Made by a program: the position numbers and the translations under genes. A stretch of 64,000 bases of DNA, from positions 186,001 to 250,000 of the forward strand of contig NZ_VVIW01000005.1 in NCBI RefSeq assembly GCF_011682045.1, written 5' to 3'. The notes below the pieces were generated by a model. It worked only from the letters and a program-made list of their open reading frames with translations, searched no databases and had not been told where the DNA came from. Each line of letters starts with the position of its first letter. The stretch's first letter is position 1. Shown here piece after piece: positions 34,535 through 64,000 of the stretch. This DNA comes from Massilia aquatica (GTDB lineage: Bacteria; Pseudomonadota; Gammaproteobacteria; Burkholderiales; Burkholderiaceae_D).

Positions 34535-34541
34535 CGGTCGC

Positions 34542-41093: not shown

Positions 41094-41145
41094 GGATGGT
41101 TGTCGTGCGCAGTTTTTGGATGTGCCGGAATGATAACGCCTTTTC

Positions 41146-41462
41146 TCATGCGCGCAACAATTCGAGATCGCGAATCAGCTCGCTGGCGGCGACCGGGGCG
41201 AGCGTGGCAAGAGCGCCGACGACGACCTTCTTCAAGGTCTGCTGGGGATACTCGTGAACCAGGCCCGCGATGATACGGGGGTGATGTGCAGTTCGGCCAG
41301 GCGGCCGCCGGCAAGCGCTTTGTTGAACGTGACGATCGTGCCCCCATCCCGCGCCGCGCCACGGCGCCAGCCCTTGATGTCGCGTTCAGCCTTGCCTCTG
41401 GCGTAAAGACGCGCCGCCAGTGCCAGTGCCAGCGGCTTGGCGCGCGCCCTGCGCGGTGCCAT
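41146..41462 (-). pseudogene. Decayed 3' relic of a WGR/DUF4132 paralog
   Basis: Read on the minus strand, the left part encodes IIAGLVHEYPQQTLKKVVVG followed by TLAPVAASELIRDLELLRA and a stop. This is the end of the DUF4132 paralogs in the array. The right part encodes KGWRRGAARDGGTIVTFNKA then GGRLAELHITP, also a paralog segment, but in the frame one base away. The frameshift lies near 41272-41282. Residues before KGWRRG (a run rich in Arg, Ala and Leu, from 41462) do not match any copy. The relic thus retains only about the last 85 codons of a gene, joined to unrelated sequence. It lies between copy 1 and the MoxR gene. Confidence 0.8.
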
Positions 41463-41530
41463 TCATGGTGGGTTCACCAGTACTGCGGGCCGGCCGGCCG
41501 AATTGCCTGCGGCTGGCCGGGGAGCGGGTT

Positions 41531-44500
41531 TCATGCGCACAGTGCCTCCATGTCGCGAATCAGTTCACTGGCAGCGATAGGGCTTAAGGTCGATAGCGGC
41601 TGGCCCTTGTCGAAGCTGCTCCAGGACCCGGCGCTGCCGATACTGACCTGTTCCATGACCTGGTCTTCCGAATCCATGATCGAGCCAAGCATCAGACCCG
41701 GGCCAAAACGCAGCGCCACCGTGCGCCCGTCGCCGAGCGGCCGGTTGAAATCGAAGACGAAGCCGGCATCCTGCGCATCGCCGCGCTCCCAGCCCTTGTG
41801 CGCCAGGCCCAGAAGGCGCCCGACAGGCACCTCGATGCCCTCCCAGCGCGTGAGTGCACTGGCGGCCAGTTCGTCGGCGGTCAGCGTGTAGGTGTCGCGT
41901 CCGATCTGGGCAAACGGTTGCACCAGCTCATAGTCGGCCAGCAGCTGGCCGAAGCCCGCAGCTTCCTGCGCCGGCAGGTCGAGCGCGTGCGGAATGCCGA
42001 TGCGGATATTATCGCCCTGCGGCAGTTGCCACGCGTCGTCGGCGGCGTCGGTCAGGTCGCCATCCGGGCCGACCCGGAAGCAGCCGAGCAGGCGGCCACC
42101 GTGGCTGGCGCCCGGTTCCATGTCATAAGCGCCCCACACCAGCCGCTGCACCAGATGGCGCACCAGCGGGTGCCCGGCCAGGAAGCGCTGGAAGATGGCC
42201 GGCTCCCAGCGCCGCTGCGCGCACATGGCCATTTCCAGCCGCAGCACCTGCTGCTCTGCGATGCTGCGCGCATCCTTCTTGAGCGCCTTGAAGCGCTCCG
42301 TGGCCGCCGCCGACAGCACCGCATCGTCGCTCTTGTTCGGCTTGGGCAGGTCGGCCAGGCGCAGCCCGGACGCATCGCGCACGCACGGCTTGAGCGTTTC
42401 GTCGAAGCCGACGCGGAACTGGCGCGGGCCAAAATCGAGCAGCAGGGCGCCATCGCCGTCGAGGCCCAGGTCGGGCGCCAGGCGGTCTTCCAGTTCGTCG
42501 GTGCTGAGATTGCGCGCTTCGGCGATCTGGGCGATCTTGTCGCGCGCATTGTCCTGCAGCGCCTTGAACTTGACCTTCTGCGCAATCCCGTTGAGCAGCA
42601 TCAGGGCCAGGTCGGTACCGATCGTGGCCAGGATATCGAGCCCGGCAATGGCGCGTGCACTCTGGCTTTCGCCCGGCCAGGCCCGGATCAGCGGGGTGAG
42701 CTTGCGCGCGCAATCGTCGCCGCCGAACAGGCCCAGGGCCGTGAAGGCCCAGTTGTTCCTGGCGTCGCCACCGGCGTCCGACCAGGCGCTGAACAAATCC
42801 CAGGCGAAGCGGCTCAGGGAGTCGGGCGTGCATGCCTGGCGCACTTGATCGATACCGGCGTAGACACCGTCGGCCTGGGGAAAGCGCAGCATCACGCCGA
42901 TCAGGTCGAGCACCTCGTCGGGCAGCGGCTTGCCGTTGGCGGCCAGGTGCGGACGCGCCCAGCTGCGCGGCATCCAGAAAGCCGGCAGCGCAGCGATTTT
43001 CGATGGGAAGCGGTCGAGCGGATCTTCGTCCAGCATGGCGCGCATGGCGGCGTTGACCGCCTCCTGGCCGTAGCGGCCGGCGACCGCGATCAGCATGGCT
43101 TCATGGCCGTTCGCCGCGAGCAGGCGCAGTGCGCTGGCGGCGGCGTCGCGCGCCGCGCCGGCCTTGCCCAGTGCCGGGGCGATCAGGCCGCAGGCGGCAT
43201 GCTCCGGATTGGCCAGCAGCCAGTTGCGCGCCATGTCGCGCACGGCCTTGGACTTGAGCACCGCCAGCGCGCGCGCCACCGGTGCGGCCAGTTCGACGGC
43301 GCTGAAGTACATCGCATACTTCAATTCTTCGGCAGGGCGGCGCTCGCACATCACCACCAGGCCGGGCAGGGCGTCGATTCCCATGCTGCCGATGGCGTGC
43401 CCTGGCGAGTTGATGTCGTACTTGGCCATGACGGCCCACACGGCGGCATTGAACGGCGGCGGCAGCTTTGCGATCGCATGCACGCTGTTGGCCATTTCGT
43501 GGCCGCGTTGGCGGTAGGCTTCCCAGCATGCGACCACGCCCGCCACATCGCCGGCGGCGATTGCGGCCGCGTCGTTCGGTGTCTTGAATCCCGATCCGCC
43601 GCCCGTGTAGAGGATAAGACGCCGTTCGCGCAGCACGCGCTGGCGTTCGGCGTCGCTCCAGCGTTCGACCGGCGCCAGCGGCAGGATCTCCAGCGTCAAG
43701 GCCTTGCTTGCGCTTTTTGTCCGCGCCAGCCACGGTGGGTTGGCCAGCACCGAGGGCAGGTCGCCCGCGTCGGCCGCGTCGGCTGGCGCTTCCAGGCGGC
43801 CGGCCAGGCCGTCGAGTACCTTGACCGCCGCTGCGGACAGCCATGGCGTCAACGCAGGCAAGGCGGCCAGGTGCTGCGGCACCAGTGCGGCCAGCACCGA
43901 GCGCGCCGCGCCGGGGGCGCGCTTGTCGGTCGCAATCAATTCGGCCAGGCCGGCGATGGCGGCGAGCGGCCAGCGTGCAGACGCCGACGCCAGGCGCTTG
44001 ATCGCCTTTTTTGCGGCGATCGACGCCAGCGCGCGGATCGCTTCCGGCGTGCCGATGCTGGCGATGGCGTCGGCGGCCAGGTCGGCGCCAACCCCGTCGC
44101 GCAGCGCCGCCACGGCGTCGGTGCCACGGTCCTGGATCGCGGTCGCGATCATTTCCGGCTTGTCGTACCACGCGAACAGGTAGAAGTCGTCGCACGCCTT
44201 GATCGTATCGAGGGCGCGCATGCTGGCGGCATCGCGTACGGTCAAGCGCAGCCACGCCATCGAGGTGGGATAGACGGGACCGGCGGCGGCGACGATGGCG
44301 TCCGACAGGCCCGGGGCGTCCGGCAGCAGCACGCCGAACAGCCCCTGCCGGTGCGCCGCCAGCGAAGGCAACCTGTCGCGAACCAGCTGCACGCAGGCGT
44401 CCCATACGTCTTGCGGCGCGTGCGCCAGGTGGGCGCGCAGCGCCAGTTCGGTTTTGCCGAACACGTTTTCGGTGGGCGCAAACCACTGCTCGGCATCGTC

Positions 44501-45268
44501 GTCGATGCAGATGCCCGGTTTACGCAGGCCTTGCTGGCGCACGCTGATGCGTTCGATCTGCAGCAAGGTGTCGAGGGCGTGCACGATGCCTTTGCTGGCC
44601 ACCAGGAAGTCGATGAAGGGAGTTCCATCGGACGGCGCCAACAGGTCGTCGAAGGTGCTCGATAGTGCCAGCAGGACGATGTCGGAGGCGGCGGAACCGT
44701 CGCGCTGCCCGTGCTCGATGCGCTGCGCCGCCTCTTCCATCGCCGGGCGCCACCCTGACGCCGAAAGCGCGGGACTGAGCGGCGCGCATTGCCGCGCATG
44801 GGCCAGGAACAGGTTCCAGCTGGCGCCGGCGTCGATGACCGGCGCCGTGCCCGGGAAGCGGCGCGAGGGCAGGGCCAGCGCCATCATCGTCGCTGGCACG
44901 TCGATCAGCGGCGAGACTGCCAGCCAGGGGGCGATGTCGGACGCAGGCGCGGGCGCCGCCAGGGGCACTGGCGCGGCAGCCGCTGGCGCTGATGCCGCGA
45001 CCGCAGCAGCTGGTGCTGATGCCGCGACCGCAGCCGCTGGCGCTGCCGCTACTGGTGCGCCGGCCCCGGTTTCGGCATAGCCCTTGCCGGTTTTTTCGCG
45101 TATCAGTTTAGCCATTGCCGCGCCGGCCGTGACGGCATCGGCATGGTTCTTGGTCTGGGCCTTGCCCGCCGTGCCGATCTTGCCGAAGCAGACCGTGACA
45201 TCGCTGCCGTCCTGGCTCACTTCCCAGAATTTACTGGAAACGCCATCGCTCAATTCAAATCGTCGCAT
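41531..45268 (-). CDS. WGR-DUF4132 protein, array copy 1 (MolR/YehI-like)
   Basis: 1245 residues. WGR domain at about 1-70 (MRRFELSDGVSSKFWEV, FGKIGTAGKAQ), then an Ala-rich linker built from nine-residue repeats (AAVAASAPA type, about 72-112). A long helical-repeat region follows (about 115-850), including SRRFPGTAP near 134 and NPEHAACGLIAPALGKAG near 690. The most conserved block is C-terminal: LLDFGPRQFRVGFDETLKP, HPLVRHLVQRLVWGAY (about 1033), RIGIPHALDLP (about 1090), GRDTYTLT and the end ASELIRDMEALCA. AGGA precedes the ATG by seven bases. WGR domains often bind nucleic acid or sit in stress-related proteins; no enzymatic motif was identified in DUF4132. Confidence 0.85.
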   Translation of the reverse strand: MRRFELSDGVSSKFWEVSQDGSDVTVCFGKIGTAGKAQTKNHADAVTAGAAMAKLIREKTGKGYAETGAGAPVAAAPAAAVAASAPAAAVAASAPAAAAPVPLAAPAPASDIAPWLAVSPLIDVPATMMALALPSRRFPGTAPVIDAGASWNLFLAHARQCAPLSPALSASGWRPAMEEAAQRIEHGQRDGSAASDIVLLALSSTFDDLLAPSDGTPFIDFLVASKGIVHALDTLLQIERISVRQQGLRKPGICIDDDAEQWFAPTENVFGKTELALRAHLAHAPQDVWDACVQLVRDRLPSLAAHRQGLFGVLLPDAPGLSDAIVAAAGPVYPTSMAWLRLTVRDAASMRALDTIKACDDFYLFAWYDKPEMIATAIQDRGTDAVAALRDGVGADLAADAIASIGTPEAIRALASIAAKKAIKRLASASARWPLAAIAGLAELIATDKRAPGAARSVLAALVPQHLAALPALTPWLSAAAVKVLDGLAGRLEAPADAADAGDLPSVLANPPWLARTKSASKALTLEILPLAPVERWSDAERQRVLRERRLILYTGGGSGFKTPNDAAAIAAGDVAGVVACWEAYRQRGHEMANSVHAIAKLPPPFNAAVWAVMAKYDINSPGHAIGSMGIDALPGLVVMCERRPAEELKYAMYFSAVELAAPVARALAVLKSKAVRDMARNWLLANPEHAACGLIAPALGKAGAARDAAASALRLLAANGHEAMLIAVAGRYGQEAVNAAMRAMLDEDPLDRFPSKIAALPAFWMPRSWARPHLAANGKPLPDEVLDLIGVMLRFPQADGVYAGIDQVRQACTPDSLSRFAWDLFSAWSDAGGDARNNWAFTALGLFGGDDCARKLTPLIRAWPGESQSARAIAGLDILATIGTDLALMLLNGIAQKVKFKALQDNARDKIAQIAEARNLSTDELEDRLAPDLGLDGDGALLLDFGPRQFRVGFDETLKPCVRDASGLRLADLPKPNKSDDAVLSAAATERFKALKKDARSIAEQQVLRLEMAMCAQRRWEPAIFQRFLAGHPLVRHLVQRLVWGAYDMEPGASHGGRLLGCFRVGPDGDLTDAADDAWQLPQGDNIRIGIPHALDLPAQEAAGFGQLLADYELVQPFAQIGRDTYTLTADELAASALTRWEGIEVPVGRLLGLAHKGWERGDAQDAGFVFDFNRPLGDGRTVALRFGPGLMLGSIMDSEDQVMEQVSIGSAGSWSSFDKGQPLSTLSPIAASELIRDMEALCA
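44976..45044. repeat. 27-base tandem repeat in the copy 1 linker
   Basis: Two near-identical 27-base units (44976-45002 and 45003-45029, two differences) and a 15-base partial third unit (45030-45044) encode the repeated Ala-rich linker between WGR and the helical region. Being a multiple of three, the unit can expand or contract without breaking the frame. Confidence 0.8.
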
Positions 45269-45301
45269 TGTTCATCCTGAATGTAAAAGTGTGGTCGCGC
45301 C

Positions 45302-48300
45302 TCAGGCGCACAAATCTTGCATGTCGCGTATCAGTTCACTGGCGACGATGGAGCCCAGCGTCGACAGGGGGTAACAGGCCGCTTTTCCGTTGACTGTGTG
45401 ACCGTCCGTGACGCGCACTTCCTTCAAGCGCTGTTCCGGCTCGTGCTCTGGCATGCCGACGATCAGGCCGGGGTCGAGGTGCAGTTCGAGCAGGCGGCCG
45501 TCGCCGAGCGGCTTGTAGAACTCCCCGATCCAGCCGCCGTCCTGCGGCTCTCCGCGACGCCAGCCTTTGTTTGCCAGGCCCAGTACGCGTCCCGTTGGTA
45601 CCTTCTGGCTGTCCCAGCGCACCAACACGAGCGCACCCGATTCCGCCTCGGTGAGCGCGTATGTGTCGCGCCCGATCTGGGCAAACGGTTGCAGCAGTTC
45701 GTAGTCGGCAAACAGCTGGCCGAAGGCGCTTGCCTCGGCGGGCGGCAGGTCGAGCGCATGCGGGATGCCGATCGTTGCCTCCGGCGGCAGCTCGAACGCT
45801 TCGTCGGCGGCGCTGGTCAGCGTCCCGTCGGACCCCACACGAAAGCACCCGATCAGGCGCGCGTGCGGGCCTGCCGCGTAGGCGCCCCACACCAGCCGCT
45901 GCACCAGGTGGCGCACCAGCGGATGGCCCGCGAGGAAGGTGAAGAAGACCTGCGGCTGCCAGCGCCGCTGCGTGCACATCGCCTGCTCCAGCCGCAGCAC
46001 CTGCTGCACGGCGATGGTACGCGCATCCTTCTTGAGTAGCTTGAAGCGCTCATGCGCCACGCCGGACAATGCGTCGTCGTCGATTTTTTTGGGCTTGGGC
46101 AGGTCGGCCAGGCGCGCGCCGTCGGCATCGCGCACATACGGCTTGAGCGTTTCGTCGAAGCCGACGCGGAACTGGCGTGGGCCGAAGTCGAGCAGCAAGG
46201 CGCCGTCATCATCCAGGCCCAGGTCGGGCGCGAGGCGGTCTTCCAGTTCGTCGACGCCCAGCTTGCGCGCTTCGGCGATCTGGGCGATCTTCTCGCGCGC
46301 GTTGTCCTGCAGGGCCTTGAACTTGACCTTTTGAGCGATCCCGTTGAGCAGCATCAGCGCGGTGTCGGTCCCGATCTCGCACAGGATGTCCAGGCCCACG
46401 ATGGCGCGCTGGTGCTGGCTTTCGCCCGGCCAGGCGCGGATCAGCGGCGTGAGCCTGCGCGCGATGTCGTCGTTGCCGAACAGGCGCAGGGCACTGAATG
46501 CCCAATTTTCCTTCACATCGGCGCCGGCGTCGGTCCACGCGGTAAACAAGTCCCAGGCAAAATCGGCGAGCGAGGCGCTGGTGCAGGCTTGGCGCAGCTG
46601 CTCGATGCCGGGGTACACACCGTCGGTCTGGGGAAAACGCAGCATCACGCCGATGGGGTCGAGCGCCGCGTCGGGCAAGGCCTTGCCGTTGCCGGTCAGG
46701 CGCGGACGGGTCCAGTTACGCGGCATCCAGAAGGCCGGCAGGGGGCCGATTTTGGCGGGCAGCCGGTCGAGCGGATCTTCGTCGAGCAGGGCGCGCAAGG
46801 CCGCGCTGACGTCGCTCTGCCGGTAGCGGCTGGCCACCTCGGTGAGCAGCGCTTCGTGGCCGCCGTCGGCCAGCAGGCGCAGGGCGCGGGCGGCGGGGTC
46901 GCGCGCGCTGCCGGCTTTGCCGAGGGCCCGCGCAATCAGGCCGCAGGCGGCATGCTCCGGATTGGCCAGCAGCCATGTGCGCGCCAGCTCGCGCACGGTT
47001 TTGCTCTTAAGGGTCGTGTACGCGCGCGCAACCGGCGCTGCCAGGGCAACCGCACCGAAGCAGCGGGCGTAAGGCAGTTCGTCGGCCGGCCGCCGTTCGC
47101 ACATGGCGACCAGCGCCGGCAGGCCGGCCAGGCCCAATGTGGCGATGGCGTAGCCGGGCGAGTTGATCTCGTATTTGGACATGGCGCTCCACACGGCCGC
47201 GTTGAACGGCGCCGGCATGTCGGCAATCGCATGCACGCAACCGCCAATTTCGTAGCCGCCGACCGAATAGGCTTCCCACAGGGCCACGACCTGGGCGACA
47301 TCGCCCGCCGCGATGGCCGCCCCCGCGTCGGCCGGTCCGGGATAGCGTTTCCAGTTGTACGGCCAGGCGTTGTAGCGTTTTTGCTTGAGCAGCTCCTGGC
47401 GCTCGTCCTCGGTCCAGCGGATTACCGGCGCCAGGTCCAGCGGCGCGAGCGTGAAGACTTTTGCGCCCGGCTTGGACGGGGACAGCCACGGTGGACTTGA
47501 CAGTACCGCCGGCAGCTCGGCCAGGCCAGCCAGGTCGGCCGGCGCGGCCGCGCGCGCGCCCACGGCATCGAGCAGCGCGGCCGCAGGCGCAGAAATCCAG
47601 GGCTTGACGGCCGCCACGTCGTCCGCATGGTCCAGCACCAGGTCGGCAAGTACCGCACTTGCCGCGGCCGGCGCCTGCTTTGCGGCGGCCAGCTCGGACA
47701 GGGCGGCCAGTGCCGCAGATGGCCAGCGCTTCGCCGCCGACGCCAGGCGCTTGAGCGACTTCTTGCTCGCTTCGCAGGCCAGGGCCAGGGCGCGCAACGC
47801 GTCGGGCGTGCCGATATGGGCCAGCGCTTCGCCGGTCGCATCGATGCCGGCGCCGTCCTTCAACACATCGACCGCCCCGACGCCGCGCTCCTGCACCAGG
47901 GTGGCCACGGCGGCGGGCAGGTTGTAAAAGAAGTGAACCGCGTAGGTGCCGGTGGAAGGCACGAACGGATCGAGCGCCTGCAAGGCCGCTGGTGCGCTGG
48001 CGGAGAGGCGCAGCCAGGCGGCCGTGTCGACCTCCTGCTGCGCGAGCGCGAGGGCCAGCGCGTCCGACAGCTCGGGCAGCTCGGGCAGCAGCACCCCGAA
48101 CAGCGGCTGGCGGCGCACCGGTAATGTGGGCAGCGCCGCGCGGATCATGCCGGCGCACTGCTCCCATACCTCCTGCGGGGCGTGCGCCAGGTGCGCGCGC
48201 ATTGCCAGCTCGGTCGATCCGAAGTCGACATTCGATGGCGAATACGAGCCAAAGCCTTGCTCGCCCATGTACCAGCACATCCCATACTGGTTATTGATCT

Positions 48301-48970
48301 CCTGGATGCTCACGCGTTCCATGTCGATCAAAACCTGCAACGCATACGGCAAGCCTTTGTCGGCCACCAGGAAGTCTAGGAAGGGTGCGCCATCCGACGC
48401 CGCCAGCTTGTCTTCGACCAGGGTCGATACCGCCAGCAGCACCAGGTCGGACGCGGCGGAGCCGCTGCGCAAGTCGCCGCGGATGCGAGCAATGGCTTCG
48501 CTCACGGCATCCTGGAAGCTGACGGGGGAGTTGTCGGGGGCGACGTCGGCGTAGCGCTGCACACGCGCGGCAAACAGCGTCCAGCAGGCCGCCGCATCGG
48601 CGTTCGGCGGCGCACCGGGGAAGCGGCGCGAAGCCATGGCCCTGGCCGCGAGAGTGGGTGGCAGCTCGATCAGCGGGGCGACGGCCAGCCATGGCGCGAT
48701 CTCGCCTGTTGGCGGCGTGGAGGAGGGCGGGACGAGCGGTTGCGGCGGTGTTGGACCTTCGCCCGCATTGGTTTCGGCGTAACCCTTGGCGCTTTTTTCG
48801 CGAATGAGTTTTTCCATTGACGCCGCAGCTTTACCTGCATCGGCATGATGCCTGGTCTGGCTGGTGCCGGCGCTGCCGATCCTGCCGTAGCAGACGTTGA
48901 CGTCGCTGCCGTCCTGGCTTATCTGCCAGAATTTGTGGGACGCCCCATCGCTCAATTCAAATCGCCGCAT
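45302..48970 (-). CDS. WGR-DUF4132 protein, array copy 2
   Basis: 1222 residues with the same plan as copy 1. WGR at about 1-70 (MRRFELSDGASHKFW, YGRIGSAGTSQ), then a short Pro-rich linker (PPQPLVPPSSTPP) without the Ala repeats of copy 1, then the helical region with SRRFPGAPP. The middle has YNAWPYNWKRYPGPADAG and NSPGYAIATLGLAGLPALVAM. The C-terminus HPLVRHLVQRLVWGAY, IGIPHALDLPP, GRDTYALT and ASELIRDMQDLCA is nearly the same as in copies 1, 3 and 6. The start is 33 bases upstream-separated from copy 1; GGAG precedes it. Probably cytoplasmic. Confidence 0.85.
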   Translation of the reverse strand: MRRFELSDGASHKFWQISQDGSDVNVCYGRIGSAGTSQTRHHADAGKAAASMEKLIREKSAKGYAETNAGEGPTPPQPLVPPSSTPPTGEIAPWLAVAPLIELPPTLAARAMASRRFPGAPPNADAAACWTLFAARVQRYADVAPDNSPVSFQDAVSEAIARIRGDLRSGSAASDLVLLAVSTLVEDKLAASDGAPFLDFLVADKGLPYALQVLIDMERVSIQEINNQYGMCWYMGEQGFGSYSPSNVDFGSTELAMRAHLAHAPQEVWEQCAGMIRAALPTLPVRRQPLFGVLLPELPELSDALALALAQQEVDTAAWLRLSASAPAALQALDPFVPSTGTYAVHFFYNLPAAVATLVQERGVGAVDVLKDGAGIDATGEALAHIGTPDALRALALACEASKKSLKRLASAAKRWPSAALAALSELAAAKQAPAAASAVLADLVLDHADDVAAVKPWISAPAAALLDAVGARAAAPADLAGLAELPAVLSSPPWLSPSKPGAKVFTLAPLDLAPVIRWTEDERQELLKQKRYNAWPYNWKRYPGPADAGAAIAAGDVAQVVALWEAYSVGGYEIGGCVHAIADMPAPFNAAVWSAMSKYEINSPGYAIATLGLAGLPALVAMCERRPADELPYARCFGAVALAAPVARAYTTLKSKTVRELARTWLLANPEHAACGLIARALGKAGSARDPAARALRLLADGGHEALLTEVASRYRQSDVSAALRALLDEDPLDRLPAKIGPLPAFWMPRNWTRPRLTGNGKALPDAALDPIGVMLRFPQTDGVYPGIEQLRQACTSASLADFAWDLFTAWTDAGADVKENWAFSALRLFGNDDIARRLTPLIRAWPGESQHQRAIVGLDILCEIGTDTALMLLNGIAQKVKFKALQDNAREKIAQIAEARKLGVDELEDRLAPDLGLDDDGALLLDFGPRQFRVGFDETLKPYVRDADGARLADLPKPKKIDDDALSGVAHERFKLLKKDARTIAVQQVLRLEQAMCTQRRWQPQVFFTFLAGHPLVRHLVQRLVWGAYAAGPHARLIGCFRVGSDGTLTSAADEAFELPPEATIGIPHALDLPPAEASAFGQLFADYELLQPFAQIGRDTYALTEAESGALVLVRWDSQKVPTGRVLGLANKGWRRGEPQDGGWIGEFYKPLGDGRLLELHLDPGLIVGMPEHEPEQRLKEVRVTDGHTVNGKAACYPLSTLGSIVASELIRDMQDLCA

Positions 48971-49007
48971 TCTATCTCCGTAAAGTTACAACGTGTGCGT
49001 GCCCGTC

Positions 49008-52000
49008 TCAGGCGCACAGTCTCTGCATGTCGCGAATCAGTTCACTGGCGGCGATCGGATCGAGCGTCGACAGCGGCTCAGGTTCGTCAATGCCGCCCCA
49101 GCTACCGGGCACGCCGACAGTGAGCTGCTCGAGGGTCTGTTCGGGGAACTCGTCCACCAGGCCGGCGACGATGCCCGGCTCGAAGCGCAGGTTGACCACG
49201 CGGCCATCGCCAAGCGCCTTGGTGAAGTCGAGGATGCTGCCGCCGTCGAGCGGGCGACCACGCCGCCAGCCCTTGTTGACCATGCCCAGCACGCGCCCGC
49301 TCGGCACGGTGATGTCTTTCCATCGCAGCAGCGCAACGGCGCTCAGTTCCGCAGCGGTGAGCGCATAGGTGTCGCGCCCGATCTGGGCGAATGGCTGCAT
49401 CAGCTCATAGTCGGCGAACAGCTGCGCAAAGGCGGCGGCATCGCTGGCCGGCAGGTCGATCGCATGCGGGATGCCGACGCGGACGTTCGCGCCTTGCGGC
49501 AGCACGAACGCATCGTCGGCGGCGTCGGTCATGCCACCGTCGGGGCCAACGCGCAGGCAGGCGAGCAAGCGTCCGCCGTGGCTGGCGTCTGCCTCGACTT
49601 CATACACGCCCCATACCAGCCGCTGCACCAAATGGCGTAGCAATGGATGATGCGCCAGGAAGTCGAAGAATACGTGTGGATCCCAGCGGCGCTGGGCGCA
49701 CATGGCCACTTCCAGCCGCACCACCTGCTGGGCGGCGATCGTTCGCGCATCCTTCTTGAGCAGCTTGTAGCGCTCGACCGCCGCAGCGGCCAGTGTGGCG
49801 TCGTCGGATTTTTTAGGCTTGGGCAGGTCGGCCAGGCGCGCACCGTCGTCATCGCGCACGAATGGCTTGAGCGCCTCGTCGAAACCGACCAGAAAGCGGC
49901 GCGGGCCGAAGTCGAGGACCAGGGTGCCCGCTTCATCCAGGCCCAGGTCGGGCGCGAGCCGGTCCTCCAGTTCTTCGCTGGTCAGGTTGCGTGCTTCGGC
50001 GATCTGGGCGATCTTTTCGCGCGCGTTGTCCTGCAAGCCCTTGAACTTGACCTTTTGCGCAATGCCGTTCAGGAGCATGAGGGCGGTATCGGTGCCGATC
50101 GCGGCCAGCACATCGAGCCCGGCCACCGCACGCGCATGCTGGCTCTCGCCTGGCCAGGTGCGGATCATCGGGGTCAGCTTGCGCGCCACGTCGTCGTTGC
50201 CGAACACGCGCAGCGCGCCATAGGCCCAGCTCTCTTTCGGGTCGGCGCCGGCGTCGAGCCAGGCGCGGAACAGGTCCCACGCAAAGTCGGCCAGCGAGGC
50301 CGGCGTACAGGCATCGCGCACCTGATGCAGGCCGGCGTAGACGCCGTCTTCCTGCGGAAAACGCAGCATGGCGCCGAGCGGATCGAGTGCGCTGTCGGGC
50401 AGCACCTTGACGCTACCGGCCAGGCGCGGACGGTTCCAGTTGCGTGGCAACCAGAAGGCGGGCAGGGGGTCGATCCTGGCCGGATGGCGATCGAGCGGGT
50501 CTTCATCGAGCATGGCCTCGATGGCGGCGTTGACGGCGTCCTGCTGGTAGCGGCTTGCGGTATCGGTCACGATCCCACGGTGCCCGTTCACTGCCAGCAG
50601 CTGCAGGATTGCCACGGCGGCATTGCGCGCCGCGCCGGGTTTGCCCAGCGCCGGGGCGATCATGGCGCAGGCCGCGTAGTCCGGATTGGCCAGCAGCCAG
50701 CGGCGCGCGATGGCGCGCAGGGACTTGTTTTTTCCGCTGGCGCAGATGCGCCCCATCAGCTGCGCCAGTTCGACGCTACCGAAGTACATCGCATACGGCA
50801 GCTCGTCGGCCGGATTGCGCTCGCACATGAGCATCAGCGCCGGCAGGCTCTCCACGCCCAGGGTGGCGAAGGCGTAGCCGGGCGAGTTGATGTCATGACC
50901 GGCCATGGCGGTCCACACTGCCGCGTTGAACGGGGCGGGCAGGTCGGCGATGGCGTGCACGCAGCCGCCGATGTCGTTATTCTCTTCGGCGTAATGCGCC
51001 CACAGCGCGACCACGGCCTGCACATCGCCCGCGGCGATAGCATCGGCCGTGCCTTGCGGGCCGTCGAAACGCTCGGCGTCGTAGGGCCAGGCGTTGTAGC
51101 GCTGGTCGGCCAGCAGGCGCTGACGCTGCTGCTCGGTCCAGCGCGTGCAGGGCGCCAGCGGCAGCGCTGCCAGCACCAGCGGTTTTGGGACCGGCTTGGG
51201 CGGCGCCATCCACGGCGGGTTGGCCAGCACCGTTGGCAGTTCGCCCGCATCGGCGGCGTCGAGCGATGCTGCGAATTTTCCGGCCATCTCGGCCAGCAGC
51301 CGCGCTCCCGGGGCGGATATCCACGGCGTGATCGCCGGCACCGCACCGGAATGGTCCAGCACCAGGCTGGCGAGGGTGGAACGCAAGGCTGGTGGTAAGG
51401 CCGGGTCGGCGGCGACCAGTTCCGACAGGGCGGCCATGGCGGCCAGCGGCCAGCGCTGCGTCGCCATTGTCAGTCGTGGCAGCGACTTTTTGGTGACATT
51501 GCAGACCTTCGCCAGCGCGCGCACGGCGTCCGGCGTGCCGATGCAGGCCAGCGCGTCGCCGGCGGCGTCGGCGCCGGCCGCTATTTCGAGCTGCGCGACC
51601 GCGTCGACGCCATGTTCCAGCACTAGCGCGGCCACCACGGACGGCATGTTGTAGAACAGGTTGCGTGCGTACTCGTCGTATCTTGGTTCGAACGGCTCCA
51701 CCGCCTGCAGGCTGGCCGGATCACGCGCGGTCAGGCGCAGCCAACCGCTCGGGTTGTACGGATGCTGCGCGAGCTTGAGGATCAGCGCGTCCGATAGTGC
51801 CGGTTCCTCGGGCAGCAGCAAGGCGCACAGCGGCTGGCGGTATATGGATAACGTGGGCAGGCCGTCGCGCAGCAGTTGCGCGCATTGCTGCCACAGGTCT
51901 TCCGGCGCCCAGGCCAGATGCGAGCGAAACGCCAGTTCGGTCGCGCCGAAACTGCTGCGCGAGGACCCGTACGACAGGTCGATCTCGTCGCTGATAAACC

Positions 52001-52766: not shown

Positions 52767-52803
52767 TGCCTGTCCTGTCATGATGATGTGTGTGCGTGCC
52801 GTC

Positions 52804-56487: not shown

Positions 56488-56527
56488 CACGCATGTCCTT
56501 GAAAGTTGAAGTTGTGCCGGCATTGTG

Positions 56528-59500
56528 TCAGGCGCCCAGCCATTGCAGGTCGCGTATCAGTTCACTGGCCGCGATCGGGTCGAGCGCCGCTAGCGGCGCA
56601 CTCTTGTCGACCCGGCCATGCCTGCCCGTGCTGCCGAACGATACCTGCTTGAGGGTTTGCTCGTCATGTTCATCCGTCAGGGTGAGCATGATGCCAGGAG
56701 TGATGCTCAGTTCGACCAGGCGTCCATCGTCGCACGCCTTGGTGAATTCCCAGGCGTAGCTGTGCTCCTGCGTGCGGCCGCGGCGCCAGCCCCGGTTGGT
56801 CAGGCCAAGCACCCTGCCTGTCGGGACCACCACGCCATCCCAGCGCTGTAAGCGGTCCGACGCCAGTTCGGCGGACGTCAAGGCATACGTGTCGCGCCCG
56901 AGCTGGGCAAACGGCTGCATCAGCTCATAGTCGGCGAACAACTGGCCAAAGGCCGCCACGTCGGCGGCCGGCATCTCAAGCAAATGCACGACGCCGATGC
57001 GGACATCGTCGCCGGTCCCGAGCGCGTACGCATCGTCGCCGGCGTTGGTAAAGCCCCCATCGGGGTCGACCCGGACGCAGCTCTCAAGGCGCCCATCGAC
57101 ATAGACGCCCCATACCAGCCGCTGTACCAGATGGCGCACCAGCGGATGACCGGCCAGGAAGGTGTTGAAAACCACCGTCTGCCAGCGGCGCCGCGCGCAC
57201 ATGGCGACCTCCAGGCGCAGCACCTGCTGCGCCGCGATGGCACGCGCGTCTTTCTTGAGCAGCTTGTAGCGCTCGGCGGCGGCGCGCGCCAGTTCGGCGT
57301 CATCGCCTGGCTTCGGTTTGGGCAGCTCGGCCAGGCGTGCCCCGTCCTGGTCGCGCACATACGGCTTGAGCGTTTCATCGAAACCGACCCTGAACTGGCG
57401 CGGACCGAAGTCGAGCAGCAGCGCGCCATCGTCGTCGAGTCCGAGATCGGGAACGATGCGGTCTTCCAGTTCCTCGGCCGTCATGTTGCGTGCCTCGGCG
57501 ATCTGCCTGATCTTTTCGCGCGCGCTTTCCTGCAGGCCCTTGAACTTGACCCGATGGGCGATCCCGTTGAGCAGCAGCATGGCGGTGTCGGTGCCGATCG
57601 CCGCCAGCACGTCGAGTCCCGCCACCGCGCGCGCATGCTGGCCCGCGCCCGGCCAGCTGCGGATCAGCGCGGTCAGTTTGCGCGCGACATCGTCGTCACC
57701 GAACACGCGCAACGCGTTGAACACCCAGTTTTCTTTCGAGTCCATGCCGTCTTCCTGCCACTCGCAGAACAGCTCCCAGGCGAACGCGGTCAGGCAAGCG
57801 GGGGTGCAGGCCTGGCGCACCTGGTCAAGGCCTGCGTACACGCCTTCGGTTTGCGGAAATCGCAGCATGGCGCCGAGCGCGTCGAGTGCCGCGTCGGGCA
57901 GCGCCTTGCCGTTGCTGGCCAAGCGCGGGCGGGTCCAGCTGTGCGGCGTCCAGAACGCGGGCGCGGCCCCGAACTTGGCGGGGAACAGGTCGAGCGGGTC
58001 CTGGTTGAGCATGGCACGCAGGGCTACCAGCACCGCCGGCTGCTGGTAGCGGGCAGCCACCTCGATCAGCAGTGCTTCATGGCCGGCGCCGGCCATCATG
58101 CGCAAGGCGGCAGCGGCATATTCGCGCGCTCTGCCAGCCTTGCCCAGTGCCGGCGCGAGCAGGCCGCAGGCCGCGTGTTCGGGGTAGGCCAGCAGCCAGC
58201 GGCGCGCACGGTGTAGGTCTTCAGGGTGGCCAGGGCGCGCGCCACCGGCGCTGCCAGTTCGATGGCGGCGATGTATTGTGCGTAGACCAGATCGTCGGCC
58301 GGGCGCCGCTCGCACATGGCCACCAGGCCCGGCAGTCCACGCAGGCCCAGGGTCGCCACCGCGTAGCCGGGCGAATTGATCGGGTGCTGCGCGAGCGCGT
58401 TCCACACAGCCGCGTTGTACGGTTCGGGCATGTCGACAATGGCGTGCACGCAGCCGCCCAGGTAATGGCCATCACCGACACACGCCTGCCAGATCGCCAG
58501 CAGCGCATCCAGGTCCCCCGCCTCGATCGCCGCCGCTGCCTGTTCAGGGGCGGCGAACCGGCGCGCATTCCATGGATATGCACTGTAGCGCTCTTCGCTG
58601 CGCATGTCTTCGCGTTGGTCGGCGGTCCAATGTTCGGCCGGCGTCAGCGGCAGCGGCGCGAGCGCCAGCGCGGCGAGGGTTTTCTTGCGCGGCTTGAGCC
58701 ATGGCGGATTGGCCAGCACGGGCGGCAGGTCTGCTGGGTCTGCGATCTGGCCGGCGAGCGCGAACCTTGCCGCAAAGTCGTCCAGCACCGCCGCCGCCTG
58801 CTCCGAGATCCACGGTTTGAAGGCGGGCAGTTGAGCGGCGTGTTCCGACACCAGCGTTGCGAGCAGCGAACGTCCCGCAAGCGGGATGGGACCGTCGGTG
58901 GCGCTCAGTTCTGCCAGGCCGGCAAGCGCCGCATATGGCCAGCGGCTTACCGCAGCTCTCAAACGGTCAAGCACGGCTGCCTTGTTGTATTTACCGGTCA
59001 GGCCGCGCGCCAGCGCGGCCACCGCCTCGGGGGTGCCGATGCACAGCAGGGCCTCGTCCGTGACCCTGACTGTCACACCGGGTGCCAGCAGCGCGACGGC
59101 ATCGGCCCCATACTCCTGCAGTAGCGTGGCCACTGCGAAAGGCTCCGAATGGTACTGGCATTCACCGCCGAGTGAGCCGGGCAGCATGGCCATCATGCGC
59201 GCTCTCAAGGCCAGCGTCTGTTCCCTGACGGGCGCGCTGACAGTGAGGTTGAGCCAGAAGTCGAAGCTGCGCAGGTCGTATTCGCGTTCCATGACCAGCG
59301 CGTCCGAGACCTCCGGAACGTCGGGCAGCAGCAAGGCGAGTAGCACCTGGCGATGGGGCGGCACGCGTTCGAGACAGTTGCGGATCGCTTGCACACATTG
59401 CATCCATATGTCGTCGCTGGCGTGTGCAAGGTGGCCGCGATACGCCAGTTCGGCCATCGAAAAGCTGCCACGGTGGCGCGAAAACTGCCACTGTTGTCCT

Positions 59501-60006
59501 GCGGCGCCGACGCACCATGGCTGGCCGAGGCGCTTGTCGTCGACATCGATGCGCATTTTTTCCACGCCGGTGAGCAAGACTTCGAGCGCATACGGCAAGC
59601 CGCGTTCGGCGACCAGAAAGTCGACAAAGGGAGATCCGTCCGACCGCGCAAGCCGGTCTTCGAACAGCGTCGACATTCCCAGCATGACCGCGTCGGACAA
59701 GAGCGAGCCGGCGCGCACGCCTTGTTCGACGCGCGCATCGGCCTGCCTGGCTGCGGCGACGAACTCGGGCTCGCATCGGTCGAATTCGGGTTTGCGCGCG
59801 GCGCGCGCATGCGTGAGGAACAGCTCCCAGGCGCGGTCTGGGTCGGCGCAGGCAGGCGTGCCGGGAAAGCGGCGTGAAGGCATGGCCAGTGCCGCCATCG
59901 CCGCCGGCACATCGAGCACGGGTCCGCAGGCAAGCCAGGGGGCGACAGCGCCGGATAGCGGCGCTACGTTGGCGGGGCTGCCGCTGGTCGGTTCGGAGTG
60001 CTGCAT
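56528..60006 (-). pseudogene. DUF4132 protein, array copy 5, split by a frameshift; no WGR domain
   Basis: The upstream part reads from 60006 (MQHSEPTSGSPANVAPLSG, then APWLACGPVLDVPA) down to about 58205 (TLKTYTVR). The downstream part continues in another frame (RWLLAYPEHAACGLLAPALGKAG) to the stop at 56528. Copies 1, 2 and 4 have five residues between the Val-Arg/Ala-Arg and the Trp-Leu-Leu; here only five bases remain. This implies a 10-base deletion near 58200-58208, and adding 10 bases restores a multiple of three over the whole gene. The WGR domain is absent; the gene starts directly in the linker. Either the two halves are made separately or the gene is dead. Confidence 0.82.
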
Positions 60007-60042
60007 GATGTGTCCTGAAAATGAGTGTGTGTCAGCGCCGTT

Positions 60043-63000
60043 TCAGGCGCACAGATTGTTCATGTCGCGTATCAGCTCACTGACCACCACCGGGTCGAGC
60101 GCGGACAGTGCAAGCGGCTGGCCGATGCCGCCCCAGTCGTCGCTGCGTCCGACCCTCACCTCGCCCACGGTCTGCTCGGGGTGTTCGCCGGTGTTCCCGG
60201 CGACCAGGCCCGGCGTGATGTGCAGTTCGGCCAGATGGGCGGCAGCCAGCGCCTTGGTGAAGGTCCAGATGCTGCCGCCGTCGCGCACCGGTCCCCGGCG
60301 CCAGCCCTGGTTCACCATACCCATGACGCGCCCGCTCGGCACGACCTTGCCATTCCAGCGCGTCACGGATTCGCGGCCCGCTTCGGCGTCCTCCAGCCGG
60401 TAGGTGTCGCGCCCGATCTGCGCGAACGGTTGCAGCAGTTCGTAGTCGGCGAACAGGCGGGCGAAGGCGTGCGCATCGGCTGCGGGCAGGCCGAGCGCAT
60501 GCACGATGCCGATCCGCGCCGCGTCGTCCGGCGGCAGGTCGACAGCATCGTCGGCCGCCGTGGTGAAAGTGCCGTCGGACGCGACCCGGAAGCACGCCAG
60601 CAGCGCATTGCCGTCGACGCTGTACAGGCCCCAGACCAGGCGCTGCACCAGATGGCGCAGCAGCGGGTGGTGTGCCAGGAAGTCGATGAAGAGCTGCCGC
60701 TGCCAGCGCCGCTGCGCGCACATCGCCATTTCCAGCCGCAGCACCTGCTGCGCGGCGATGGAGCGCGCGTCTTTCTTGAGCAGCGTGTAGCGCTTTACCG
60801 CCACCGCCGACAAGACCGGGTCGTCGCTCTTTTTCGGCTTGGGCAGATCCGGCAGGCGCGTGCCGGCGCTGTCGCGCACGCAGGGCTTGAGCGTTTCGTC
60901 GAAACCGACGCGGAACTGGCGCGGGCCGAAGTCGAGCAGCAGCGTGCCTTGTTCGTCGAGGTCCAGGTCGGGCGCCAGGCGGTCTTCCAGTTCCTCAACG
61001 CTCAAGCCGCGCGCCCCGGCGATGGCGGCGATCTTGTCGCGTGCGCGGTCCTGCAGCGCCTTGAACTTGACCTTTTGGGCGATCCCATTGAGCAGCATCA
61101 GGGCGGTATCGCTGCCGATCAGTGCCAGTACATCCAGGCCGGCGATGGCGCGCGCGCTGAGGCTTTCGCCGGGCCAGGCGCGCAGCAGGGGCGTGAGCAT
61201 GCGCGCGCTATTGTCGTTGCCGATCAGGCCGAGCGCGAAGAAGGCCCAGTTTTCCTTCGGCTGCGCGCCGTCTTCGACCCAGGCGCGGAACAACTCCCAG
61301 GCGAAATCGGCCAGCGAATCGGGCGTGCATACGTCTTTGAGCTGGGCGACGCCGGCATAGATACCGTCGGCGTGCGGAAAGCGCAGCATGTCGCCGATGG
61401 TATCGAGCGTGGCCTCGGGCAGCGCCTTGCCGCTTGCGGCCAGGAGAGGCCGGGCCCACAGGTGCGGTGTCCAGAACGGCGGCAGGCCGGCAATTTTGGC
61501 CGGGTGCAGGTCGAGCGGATCTTCATCGAGCATGGCGCGCAGGGCGCCCGTCACGGCATCCTGGCCATAGCGCTCGGCGACATCGAGCAGCAGCGGCCGG
61601 TGGCCCGCCGCGCCCAGCAGCCGCAGCGCGGCGCGTGCCTGTTCGCGCGCCCCGCCTGATTTGCCGAGTGCCGGCGCAATCAGGCCGCAGGCGGCATGTT
61701 CCGGGTTCGCCAGCAGCCACTCGCCAGCGCATGCACGCAGTTCCTTGTTTTTCAAGGTGATCCACGCGCGCGCCACCGGGGCCGCCAGTTCGACCGCGCC
61801 GAAGTGGCGTGCGTACGCCAGGTCTTGCGCAGGGCGCCGTTCGATCATGTTCACCAGGCCGGGCAACCCTTCCAGGCCGAGTGTGGCAATCGCGTAGCCG
61901 GGCAGATTGACCTCGACCTGCGCGACGGCGTTCCAGACCTGCGCGTTGAGCGGCGCAGGCAGGTCGGCGATCATGCGCGCGGCGTCGTTGAGGTGCTTGC
62001 CGCCGGCAAGACAGGCCAGCCAGGCGTCGATGATGGCCGCTGCCCCGGCGTGGGCGGTGACCTCTGCCGACACCTGCGGGTCCGGCTCGCTCTTGTAAGA
62101 GCTGACCGTGTAGCGTGGCTGCTTGCGCAGGCGGGCACGTTCTTCTTCGCTCCAGTGCATGCTTGGGGCCAGCGGCAAGGGCGCCAGCGTCAGTGCCGGC
62201 ACGGCTTTCTTCTTTGCCGCCGTCCAGGGCGGATTGGCCAGGATGGGCGGCAGGTCGGCTGCGGCCGCGACATCGCGCACGGTGAGGTAGTGCGCGGCGG
62301 CGTTGGACAGCACTTTCCATGCGCGCGGCGAGAGCCACGGCTGGTATGCCGGCACGCTGGCGGCATGCTGCGCCAGCAGCGCGGCCAGGAAGCGGCGTGC
62401 GCGCGCCGGGCCGCAGTGGTCCCTGCCGATCAATTCGCTCAGCACCGCAATGGCGGCCTGCGGCCAGCGTTCGGCCGCCAGTGCAAAGCGTGCGCACTGG
62501 GCCTCGCCATGGTCGCACGCCAGCGCCAGTACGGTCAGCGACTCGGTGGTGCCGATGCAGGCCAGCGCCGTGGCGGCCGCTTCTTCGTCCAGTGCTCCGT
62601 ACTTCAGGGCGTCGACCGCATCGACGCCGCGATCGCACACGATCGTCACCAGCGCTTGCTGCGAGCGGCCAAACTCGTGATCGGCGGCGTGGCATGTGCT
62701 GCGCCACCGGCGGATCGCTTTCATCGCTTCCGGCGACCTGGCATAGGCAAGCAGCCATCCGTATTGCGACAGCCAGTCGAGGCCATAGTAGCTTGGCGGC
62801 GGCTGCAGCGTCAGGGCGATGGCGTCGGCGATATGCGGCGCGTCGGGCAACAAGGCCGCCAGCAGCGGGCGGCGGCAGGTGTACAGGCGTTCGATTGCGG
62901 CATGGGCGATGCGCACGCATTCTTCCCAGACGTCGTCGGGCGCCAGCGCGAGGTAGCTGCGCAGCGTCATCTCAGTCGGGTGGTAGATGTCGTTGCGCAG

Positions 63001-63486
63001 GAAGCCGCGCAGATCGGAGGCGGCGCGCACGCCATAGCCAGCCCTGGTCGACTCAACGGCGGTGCATTCCATGCCGATCAGTGCTTCGAGCGCATGCGGC
63101 AGGCCGCGCTCGGCGGCCAGCACGTCGATCAGCGAGGCGCCACTGGTCAAAGGCAGGTAAGGAAAATCCAGATGGCGTTCGACCGCCAGCAGCACCGCAT
63201 CGCAGGCCGGCGAACCGCGCGCATCGCCGCTGGCGATGCGCGCGGCCGCCTCGCCCACGAGCTGTTGGTCGTCCGAGCCGGCCGGGTCCAGCGCGCAGTG
63301 CTGGCGCGCCGCCGCGATGAAGCGGTCCCAGATCGCGCCGGTGTCTGGGCGCGGCGCCGGGCCGGGAAAACGGCGCGAGGGCAGTGCTTCGGCCGCCAGT
63401 GCGGCGGGAATATCGACCAGCGGGCCGATGGCGAGCCAGGGCGCGACGGCGCCGCTTGCGTTGTCGCGCGAGTGGGCATGATTCAT
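60043..63486 (-). CDS. DUF4132 protein without WGR, array copy 6
   Basis: 1147 residues. It begins MNHAHSRDNASGAVAPWLA, aligning with the post-WGR linker of copies 1-4, so the whole WGR domain is missing. Only 28 bases separate it from copy 7, so no WGR exon lies upstream. The helical body carries SRRFPGPAP and NPEHAACGLIAPALGKSG. The C-terminus HPLLRHLVQRLVWGLY, RIGIVHALGLP, GRDTYRLE and VSELIRDMNNLCA is intact. The ribosome site is weaker than in the WGR-bearing copies. The frame is open throughout. Confidence 0.84.
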   Translation of the reverse strand: MNHAHSRDNASGAVAPWLAIGPLVDIPAALAAEALPSRRFPGPAPRPDTGAIWDRFIAAARQHCALDPAGSDDQQLVGEAAARIASGDARGSPACDAVLLAVERHLDFPYLPLTSGASLIDVLAAERGLPHALEALIGMECTAVESTRAGYGVRAASDLRGFLRNDIYHPTEMTLRSYLALAPDDVWEECVRIAHAAIERLYTCRRPLLAALLPDAPHIADAIALTLQPPPSYYGLDWLSQYGWLLAYARSPEAMKAIRRWRSTCHAADHEFGRSQQALVTIVCDRGVDAVDALKYGALDEEAAATALACIGTTESLTVLALACDHGEAQCARFALAAERWPQAAIAVLSELIGRDHCGPARARRFLAALLAQHAASVPAYQPWLSPRAWKVLSNAAAHYLTVRDVAAAADLPPILANPPWTAAKKKAVPALTLAPLPLAPSMHWSEEERARLRKQPRYTVSSYKSEPDPQVSAEVTAHAGAAAIIDAWLACLAGGKHLNDAARMIADLPAPLNAQVWNAVAQVEVNLPGYAIATLGLEGLPGLVNMIERRPAQDLAYARHFGAVELAAPVARAWITLKNKELRACAGEWLLANPEHAACGLIAPALGKSGGAREQARAALRLLGAAGHRPLLLDVAERYGQDAVTGALRAMLDEDPLDLHPAKIAGLPPFWTPHLWARPLLAASGKALPEATLDTIGDMLRFPHADGIYAGVAQLKDVCTPDSLADFAWELFRAWVEDGAQPKENWAFFALGLIGNDNSARMLTPLLRAWPGESLSARAIAGLDVLALIGSDTALMLLNGIAQKVKFKALQDRARDKIAAIAGARGLSVEELEDRLAPDLDLDEQGTLLLDFGPRQFRVGFDETLKPCVRDSAGTRLPDLPKPKKSDDPVLSAVAVKRYTLLKKDARSIAAQQVLRLEMAMCAQRRWQRQLFIDFLAHHPLLRHLVQRLVWGLYSVDGNALLACFRVASDGTFTTAADDAVDLPPDDAARIGIVHALGLPAADAHAFARLFADYELLQPFAQIGRDTYRLEDAEAGRESVTRWNGKVVPSGRVMGMVNQGWRRGPVRDGGSIWTFTKALAAAHLAELHITPGLVAGNTGEHPEQTVGEVRVGRSDDWGGIGQPLALSALDPVVVSELIRDMNNLCA

Positions 63487-63514
63487 TGTTGGTCTTGTTC
63501 TGATAGGTGGCTGT

Positions 63515-64000
63515 TCAAGCGCACAGTTTGTTCATATCGGCAATCAGCTCGCTGACTGTCGCCGCCCCGAGGGATGACAAAGGGACGCTCTCGCGGATCT
63601 CCTTCGGGCCGCCGCGCCCGATGCAGACCGACCCGAGTGTCTGTTCCTCGAATTCGTACGACGAGCCGGCGCGGATGCCGGGCTCCATGTCCAGCGTTGC
63701 GGTGTAACCGTCGCCAAGTACCTTGAGCAGGTCCCAGATCATGGCGCTGTCGTGCGTGTCGCCGAGCCGCCATCCCTGGTTCAGCAGGCCAAGCAGGCGC
63801 CCGGTCGGCACCACTTCGCCGTTCCAGCGGCCGAGCGCGTGGTACGCCTCTTCGCCTGCGTCGAGGGTATGCGTGGCGCGCCCGATCTGGACGAACGGCT
63901 GAAGTAGTTCGTAATCGGCGAACAGCTGGCTGAAGGCGCTGGCGTCTTCCACTGAAAGGTCGAGCGCATGCGGAATGCCGATCACGGCGCCTTCTCCTTG
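63515..64000 (-). CDS. DUF4132 protein, array copy 7 (partial, runs off window)
   Basis: Only the last ~161 codons are visible, and the frame is open to the right edge. The segments IGIPHALDL, LFADYELLQPFVQIGRATHTL, KGW-equivalent NQGWRLG and VSELIADMNKLCA identify it as another paralog C-terminus. Whether it has a WGR domain cannot be seen. It shows that the array extends beyond the window. Confidence 0.85.
   Translation of the reverse strand, partial: QGEGAVIGIPHALDLSVEDASAFSQLFADYELLQPFVQIGRATHTLDAGEEAYHALGRWNGEVVPTGRLLGLLNQGWRLGDTHDSAMIWDLLKVLGDGYTATLDMEPGIRAGSSYEFEEQTLGSVCIGRGGPKEIRESVPLSSLGAATVSELIADMNKLCA

Follow-up and report, generated by a model that had tools for sequence, protein, structure and literature searches.

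A tandem array of old WGR-DUF4132 paralogs beside a MoxR-DUF5682-VWA-SWIM operon in Massilia aquatica

The closest known counterpart of the locus described here is the yeh locus of Escherichia coli K-12, in which yehI, yehL, yehM, yehP and yehQ encode DUF4132, MoxR, DUF5682, VWA and SWIM proteins in that order; the YehL subfamily of MoxR has been named in print (PMC3893208). A second point of reference is provided by the VMAP-MoxR-vWA ternary systems, which, in the passages of PMC7159879 that describe them, encode the third component first, then MoxR and then vWA, and whose third component combines a variable alpha-helical middle with a conserved alpha/beta C-terminus. We have analysed a 64,000-nucleotide stretch of the Massilia aquatica genome (the window; positions 186001-250000 of contig C55 in source genome G000, a 7.47 Mb draft in 99 contigs) that contains the greater part of a tandem array of WGR/DUF4132 genes. 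The families and gene order are those of the yeh locus, where homologs of all four operon proteins were detected (L115). However, E. coli has one full DUF4132 gene (yehI) and a decayed relative, with yehK in between, where Massilia has eight tandem copies. The second E. coli relative is broken into yehF, which is the WGR part, and the pseudogene yehH, a decay like that seen in the Massilia arrays.

The array and its MoxR operon

The array lies directly upstream of genes for MoxR, DUF5682, VWA_CoxE and SWIM proteins, all on the minus strand and with neighbors overlapping by a few bases (Table 1). This operon, which an earlier sequence-only reading of the window did not mention, is the key to the array. 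The row of paralogs which that reading described was recovered in full at window positions 41149-64000 (minus strand), comprising a relic, A1 to A6 and the start of A7. Followed beyond the window edge, the row continues through A7 and A8 and is succeeded by Sel1 and lexA genes, and the array thus consists of eight copies plus the relic. The relic sits between A1 and the MoxR gene and matches, in two frames and at 85-86% (tblastn), the 3'-terminal ~77 codons of a partial copy belonging to another array genome (G007). The intergenic gaps previously given as 28-68 bases measure 28-40 bp from the conserved MRRFE start, where one exists, and 4-37 bp by longest open reading frame (ORF). The C-terminal motifs singled out at that stage hold with variants, A4 having VRHLAQRLVWG, DRDTY and SELIRDIEHLRA. 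DUF4132 (PF13569) scores over the cut-off in 8/8 array copies, each match far beyond chance with E 3e-44 to 3e-50, and WGR (PF05406) was found in six of them (A1-A4, A7 and A8); the same Pfam search gave no WGR for A6 or for the two pieces of A5. The three orthologs of A6 likewise have no WGR, and the ortholog of A5 in genome G009 is also broken, at a different place.

The full array copies are old paralogs under purifying selection. Syntenic arrays are present in four further genomes, those of Massilia frigida (G005), Massilia atriviolacea (G003) and two others (G007 and G009), and the N-terminal (44 rows) and C-terminal (47 rows) trees yield identical orthogroups across species, with the orthologs of the source-genome copies in matching order. 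Each intact source-genome copy has an ortholog in at least two sister genomes, again in conserved order, and at least 11 orthogroups occur in at least two species when groups missing from G000 are counted. Full-copy paralogs are 45-59% identical. The ratio of nonsynonymous to synonymous substitution rates (dN/dS; pairwise NG86, calculated per gene and, for six groups, in 80-codon windows) is 0.12-0.44 for the array copies, rising from 0.12-0.23 in the A1 group to 0.38-0.44 in A8, and is 0.02-0.09 for MoxR. Exact shared runs of at least 24 bp occur in 139/319 same-genome paralog pairs and in 505/1183 different-genome pairs, the latter including some unlisted orthologs. As these rates are similar within and between genomes, there is no sign of recent homogenization or gene conversion.

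The sequence-only reading had proposed an active expansion under selection for dosage or diversity. Active expansion is unsupported because one-to-one orthology, named in advance as the mark of an old fixed family, largely holds; the stable copy number named alongside it was not found, the arrays having 6 (G000), 9 (G007), 8 (G009), 5 (G005) and 2 (G003) full-length copies. Strong selection for dosage is likewise not supported, given the divergence and ordered orthology of the copies, their dN/dS values and the lack of any shared-tract excess, and diversity is the better fit. Recent expansion, dosage and gene conversion were rejected on the trees and shared-tract counts; positive selection was rejected after pairwise NG86, per gene and in 80-codon windows, gave nothing above 0.72. 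Copy number varies through loss, decay and apparent exchange between species, and partial copies or relics are present in all five arrays, although for G003 this is only a weak 131-residue match.

Among the sampled genomes, 8 to ~12 units in a single array is exceptional, whereas multi-copy DUF4132 is not. The earlier impression of an unusual local copy number therefore stands, since 11 of 398 genomes in a phylum sample (which includes G000 and leaves out the other array genomes) have DUF4132, with at most three copies outside G000, but a high copy number is not unique. Between 1 and 11 DUF4132 copies per genome occur among the 17 genomes behind selected loci, with Catenulispora rubra and Actinomadura alba having 11 each and C. 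rubra a tandem run of four. Within the genus, DUF4132 was matched in 7/17 genomes (six over the cut-off) and the syntenic array is present in five. The whole source genome holds 12 matches, made up of the eight array copies, two orphan WGR-DUF4132 genes (on contigs C12 and C22) and two MolR-type genes (C15). One orphan (L012:1563-5387) and its counterparts in G009, G005 and G003 are 95.7-97.5% identical at the DNA level with a synonymous divergence (dS) of 0.06-0.09, a group better conserved between species than the array copies and with no cassette nearby.

The operon order is widespread. Across 81 loci (E. coli and the best 80 among at least 566 MoxR-protein relatives in genome contigs), drawn from Proteobacteria, Actinomycetota, Myxococcota and Planctomycetota, the MoxR-DUF5682-VWA-SWIM order is kept in 71, and seven of the ten exceptions are stretches cut by contig ends. 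DUF4132 stands upstream of MoxR in 72/81 loci and solely downstream in two (Burkholderia L041 and L049); at seven loci it was not found within the fetched 10 kb flank. Counting fragments, and within that same flank, there are 0 DUF4132 ORFs at 7 loci, 1 at 49, 2 at 17, 3 at 7 and 4 at 1. We also surveyed the taxonomic family (245 genomes, with the genus covered by its own search) for DUF5682. Matches over the cut-off but below 400 bits, here called divergent, sit no more than 10 kb from DUF4132 in 18/19 cases, nine of these being cassettes of the five array genomes and nine from other genera. The one outlier, from the fragmentary genome G025, is short, and a match in G062 below the cut-off was excluded from the count. 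By comparison, 0/22 matches of the high-scoring DUF5682 clade share a contig with DUF4132, and at the one locus of this clade examined (C23 of the source genome) the order is SWIM-DUF5691-MoxR-DUF5682-VWA. This linkage and the C23 arrangement suggest a partner-protein slot in front of MoxR.

Table 1. Array and operon features; coordinates are window positions unless a contig is given.
Feature	Description	Coordinates	Strand	Evidence
SWIM	SWIM zinc-finger protein (yehQ position), 653 residues	34542-36503	-	PF04434 over cut-off
VWA	VWA_CoxE protein (yehP position), 383 residues, metal-ion-dependent adhesion site (MIDAS) DQSGS	36500-37651	-	PF05762 E 4.6e-61
DUF5682	DUF5682 protein (yehM position), 777 residues	37648-39981	-	PF18934 E 3.5e-96; AlphaFold2 model, predicted local distance difference test (pLDDT) 89.6
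MoxR	MoxR AAA+ ATPase (yehL position), 371 residues, Walker A GEPGTAKS	39978-41093	-	PF07728 E 2.5e-34
Relic	3' relic of a further DUF4132 copy	41149-41375	-	tblastn to partial copy in G007
A1	WGR + solenoid + DUF4132, 1245 residues	41531-45268	-	orthologs in 4/4 other array genomes
A2	WGR + solenoid + DUF4132, 1222 residues	45302-48970	-	orthologs in 3/4 other array genomes
A3	WGR + solenoid + DUF4132, 1257 residues	49008-52781	-	orthologs in 2/4 other array genomes
A4	WGR + solenoid + DUF4132, 1239 residues	52804-56523	-	orthologs in 2/4 other array genomes
A5	no WGR, frameshifted; two overlapping ORFs, 58096-60006 and 56528-58405	56528-60006	-	ORFs, Pfam; ortholog in 1/4 other array genomes
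A6	no WGR, 1147 residues	60043-63486	-	orthologs in 3/4 other array genomes
A7	WGR + DUF4132, in-frame internal deletion of ~216 residues	63515-64000, on to G000:C55:252559	-	ortholog in 1/4 other array genomes
A8	WGR + DUF4132	G000:C55:252664-256323, beyond window		orthologs in 2/4 other array genomes

The operon proteins have some features of their own. The SWIM protein has two CxC..CxH motifs, at residues 70 and 166. In the MoxR cassette the bpMoxR domain of the beta-propeller ternary systems stays below threshold, at 16.9 bits against a cut-off of 27. DUF5682 homologs conserve the motifs GVRHH, LIEGP and GGFH, which form a putative Tiki signature and which read GVRHF, LIEGP and GGYH in the window copy. 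Together with a weak ChaN match (E 0.21), the motifs suggest a Tiki/ChaN-like N-terminal domain.

As to the surroundings, a scan of 34400-50000 gave no sigma-70-like promoter site (1.1 expected) and 17 terminator-like sites (8.3 expected), four of them on the array strand and inside genes, and one sigma-70-like site lies upstream of A8 (0.2 expected); these are consensus matches only and were not used. The lexA gene to the right of the window (L010:13255-13947, equivalent to G000:C55:257255-257947) has two tandem perfect CTGT-N8-ACAG boxes (L010:13903-13935), which are kept in 5/5 array genomes, and is separated from the array by the Sel1-repeat gene on the opposite strand. Elsewhere in the window, 24857-27394 encodes a Sortilin/BNR-repeat protein with a C-terminal CBM_2 cellulose-binding domain, perhaps a secreted glycosidase.

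Protein modules, trimmed copies and the island site

In the predicted architecture of a full copy, an extended HEAT-like alpha-solenoid leads into a C-terminal alpha+beta DUF4132 domain that is conserved, and most copies also have an N-terminal WGR domain. The AlphaFold2 model of A6 (pLDDT 90.9), built from a 111-row alignment with the first methionine omitted such that model numbering is that of A6 minus one, is helical and solenoid-like to residue ~835 and alpha+beta at residues 848-1146. Its top Foldseek match is CAND1 (E 3e-4), which with a TM-score of only 0.12 indicates no more than the solenoid class. Between the six full copies of the source genome (five for WGR), identity is 0.63 in WGR, 0.39 in the N-terminal solenoid, 0.52 in the middle module, 0.64 in the C-terminal solenoid and 0.58 in the terminal domain, and the corresponding ortholog values are 0.87, 0.86, 0.86, 0.91 and 0.87. 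Thus, a short linker aside, it is the N-terminal solenoid in which paralogs have diverged most, and orthologs preserve that part.

Internal deletions of more than 100 residues affect seven copies and are in frame in six, these being A7, the C22 copy, G007_4/5, G005_5/6, G005_8/9 and G009_10/11; G005_5/6 is open across its deletion but truncated further on. The seventh large deletion, in G005_13/12, is out of frame, as is an adjacent one of 94 residues. At a chance of 1/3 per deletion, at least six in-frame cases out of seven would arise with a probability of ~0.007 (calculated by hand), although out-of-frame deletions may decay faster from view. Junctions were examined in five of the six in-frame cases. 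Three excise the N-terminal solenoid, beginning past the WGR linker and ending close to the LPPVLxxPPW hinge; the other two excise the stretch between this hinge and the segment preceding IGKLPxFWTP. The module borders near 485 and 735 were chosen after the breakpoints had been seen and the coincidence of junctions with module borders is hence partly circular; independent of that choice are only the recurrence of the junctions and the WGR border. Measured against the nearest ortholog, dN/dS is 0.27 for A7, 0.23 for the C22 copy, 0.35 for G005_8/9 and 0.47 for G009_10/11, and with these values the short forms look maintained, G009_10/11 least clearly.

The array occupies a defined chromosomal site. 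Its flanks are syntenic in the five array genomes, and both were detected in 17/17 genus genomes, lying on a single contig in the 12 array-less genomes at distances, read from coordinates, of ~70-1900 bp. The empty site measures ~120 bp between the flanks in G016 (2 contigs) and G002 (1 contig). By flank tree and flank dS, M. frigida is nearer to G016 and G002 (0.18-0.19) than to the source genome (0.24), whereas the dS of A1 to the source genome is 0.22 for M. frigida, 0.23 for G007, 0.35 for G009 and 0.41 for M. atriviolacea. This mismatch suggests that species have exchanged the island, on the basis of few loci and a flank tree with weak nodes. We tentatively regard the array as a chromosomal island at a fixed site, altered chiefly through loss, in-frame trimming and interspecies exchange.

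A phage origin was considered and rejected. The PHROGs families phrog_20839, 29006, 31592, 30700 and 33984 match the DUF4132, SWIM, VWA and DUF5682 proteins of the cassette with E 1e-39 to 1e-230, but these matches are not backed by the phage collection, which gave no match to A1 and one record for MoxR at 39%, or by viral contigs, which gave just one locus at 28%. The PHROGs families probably represent host flanks. Among plasmids, 19 records have partial DUF4132 matches, none spanning 80% of the query, and some of these records are chromosome-sized.

Candidate functions of the array

The reading that we tentatively favor, though we hold it at somewhat less than even, is that the eight proteins form a repertoire of alternative adaptors or sensors for one YehL-type MoxR-vWA remodeling machine. 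The variable solenoid, together with WGR, a nucleic-acid-binding (DNA-binding) domain in PARPs, would recognize differing ligands, and the conserved C-terminal part would dock onto the MoxR-vWA complex, whose ATP-driven remodeling would then activate or load an effector. The DUF5682 and SWIM proteins would be fixed parts of the machine. By analogy with the VMAP-MoxR-vWA ternary systems, the most likely setting would be a conflict or stress response.

Several observations weigh against such a repertoire. The literature searched offers neither physical nor functional evidence on a YehI/YehL-like pair, and with an E threshold of 0.01 none of six proteins matched a PADLOC model of known anti-phage defense systems (2023 library). 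Fast evolution of the arms-race kind was not found, as pairwise NG86 dN/dS stays at or below 0.72 in every 80-codon window of the six groups. The rise in dN/dS away from moxR and the many relics are compatible with a slow decay of partly redundant copies too. Furthermore, orphan copies in all five array genomes have no MoxR, VWA, DUF5682 or SWIM relative within the fetched 10-16 kb, which implies that a DUF4132 copy may act without an adjacent machine.

The dependence could also run the other way, with the DUF4132 proteins as clients that the MoxR-vWA pair matures by metal insertion or complex assembly, and the array as a set of related enzymes sharing one maturase. The VWA protein is of the CoxE type, CoxD and CoxE being the maturase of their own enzyme, and the C-terminal domain keeps the invariant or near-invariant polar residues H939, H995, D978, E1015 and R1025 (model numbering). 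Metal insertion by a MoxR-VWA pair is described for NorQ/NorD in PMC9976466. We nevertheless consider a client role unlikely, since no enzymatic fold was recognized for DUF4132 (the C-terminal domain was never searched alone) and the module best conserved among paralogs is the C-terminal solenoid, not the C-terminal domain. A more deflationary view is that the array is mostly evolutionary residue, with old duplicates in slow decay and little function beyond the copies nearest moxR. This would account for the relics or broken copies in five of five arrays (subject to the weak match in G003), for the climb in dN/dS from A1 to A8 and for the absence of the island from two nearly closed sister genomes. 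It is quite unlikely given that dN/dS is well under 1 in every full copy tested, and that the trimmed copies stay open with dN/dS of 0.23-0.47 and six of the seven large deletions are in frame.

A DNA-damage or stress module, in which WGR would bind damaged DNA and the solenoid-MoxR complex would remodel repair or replication complexes, draws on published hints: E. coli molR is listed among LexA-regulated genes (PMC11039860), and the operon of the Deinococcus DUF4132 gene DRA0166 is described as strongly upregulated on DdrO depletion (PMC8533742). Here lexA adjoins the array, and shortly before A6 (window 63511-63526) there is one perfect LexA-like site. This site, however, overlaps the A7 stop codon and has no counterpart ahead of the A6 orthologs of G007, G009 and G005, the ~190 bp upstream of the array contain no perfect LexA-like site, and sites with at most one mismatch are no more frequent than chance would give (7 in L010, a number reached in 29/200 shuffles). 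WGR, moreover, is missing from A5, A6 and the A6 orthologs. We therefore judge such a module rather improbable, and SOS control of the array was rejected because the perfect site is not upstream of the first gene and the A6 site is not kept in three sisters. A stress role and the adaptor reading are nonetheless compatible with one another. Least probable is an active recent expansion by dosage selection, as first proposed; the local copy number is high and varies between species, but the source-genome paralogs having orthologs split before the species did, and long exact runs are no commoner between paralogs of the same genome.

Returning to the adaptor reading, it can be taken further to a model that we regard as somewhat unlikely. 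Here the locus would represent a further, unnamed class of MoxR-vWA conflict system with DUF4132 as its sensor. In these Massilia, one machine would serve an inherited stock of around eleven receptors of the HEAT-solenoid type, all old and distinct, that would have diversified through their N-terminal solenoid and through the in-frame loss of whole stretches. The result would be a bacterial cluster of innate receptors that share an executor. Having many diverged third components around one machine separates a constant part, presumed to dock, from a variable part, presumed to recognize, and this separation provides concrete hypotheses for the roles of YehI and MolR. E. coli K-12 offers a tractable locus in which to test them.

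Comparison with known systems

The yeh locus is almost absent from the literature searched: among 5.39 million papers DUF4132 appears in 3 and DUF5682 in none, and of the 3 papers with at least two of six yeh/molR names, none has their function as its topic, going by titles and abstract openings. The VMAP systems, for their part, share with the array the order of third component, MoxR and vWA, except that in the array DUF5682 stands between MoxR and VWA. Unlike VMAP systems, the array cassette includes a DUF5682 and a SWIM protein. Multiplication in the array is confined to the third component, whereas PMC7159879 reports it for whole systems, up to six. The terms DUF4132, WGR, SWIM, DUF5682, YehL and MolR do not occur in the main text of PMC7159879, and a Pfam search with A1 and A6, taken to an E of 10, gave no VMAP model (sequence models only). 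With these absences and that of any PADLOC match, we do not file the array as a VMAP member, although by analogy it may work like one.

The source genome itself holds two further MoxR-DUF5682-VWA cassettes, at L013 (C15) and L126 (C23). The C15 cassette is of the MolR type and shares its families with the array in the arrangement DUF4132 x2-MoxR-DUF5682-VWA; a single-sequence profile detected no SWIM relative there. Its DUF4132 proteins, of which there are two to four copies in the four genomes having them, are only distantly related to the array copies (~28% over ~310 residues), and no WGR was found in them. The C23 cassette shares MoxR, DUF5682, VWA and SWIM with the array operon, but DUF5691 replaces DUF4132 upstream of MoxR. 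In sum, the protein families and the yeh gene order were already known; what is new is a large, old and orthologous array of third components with one machine.

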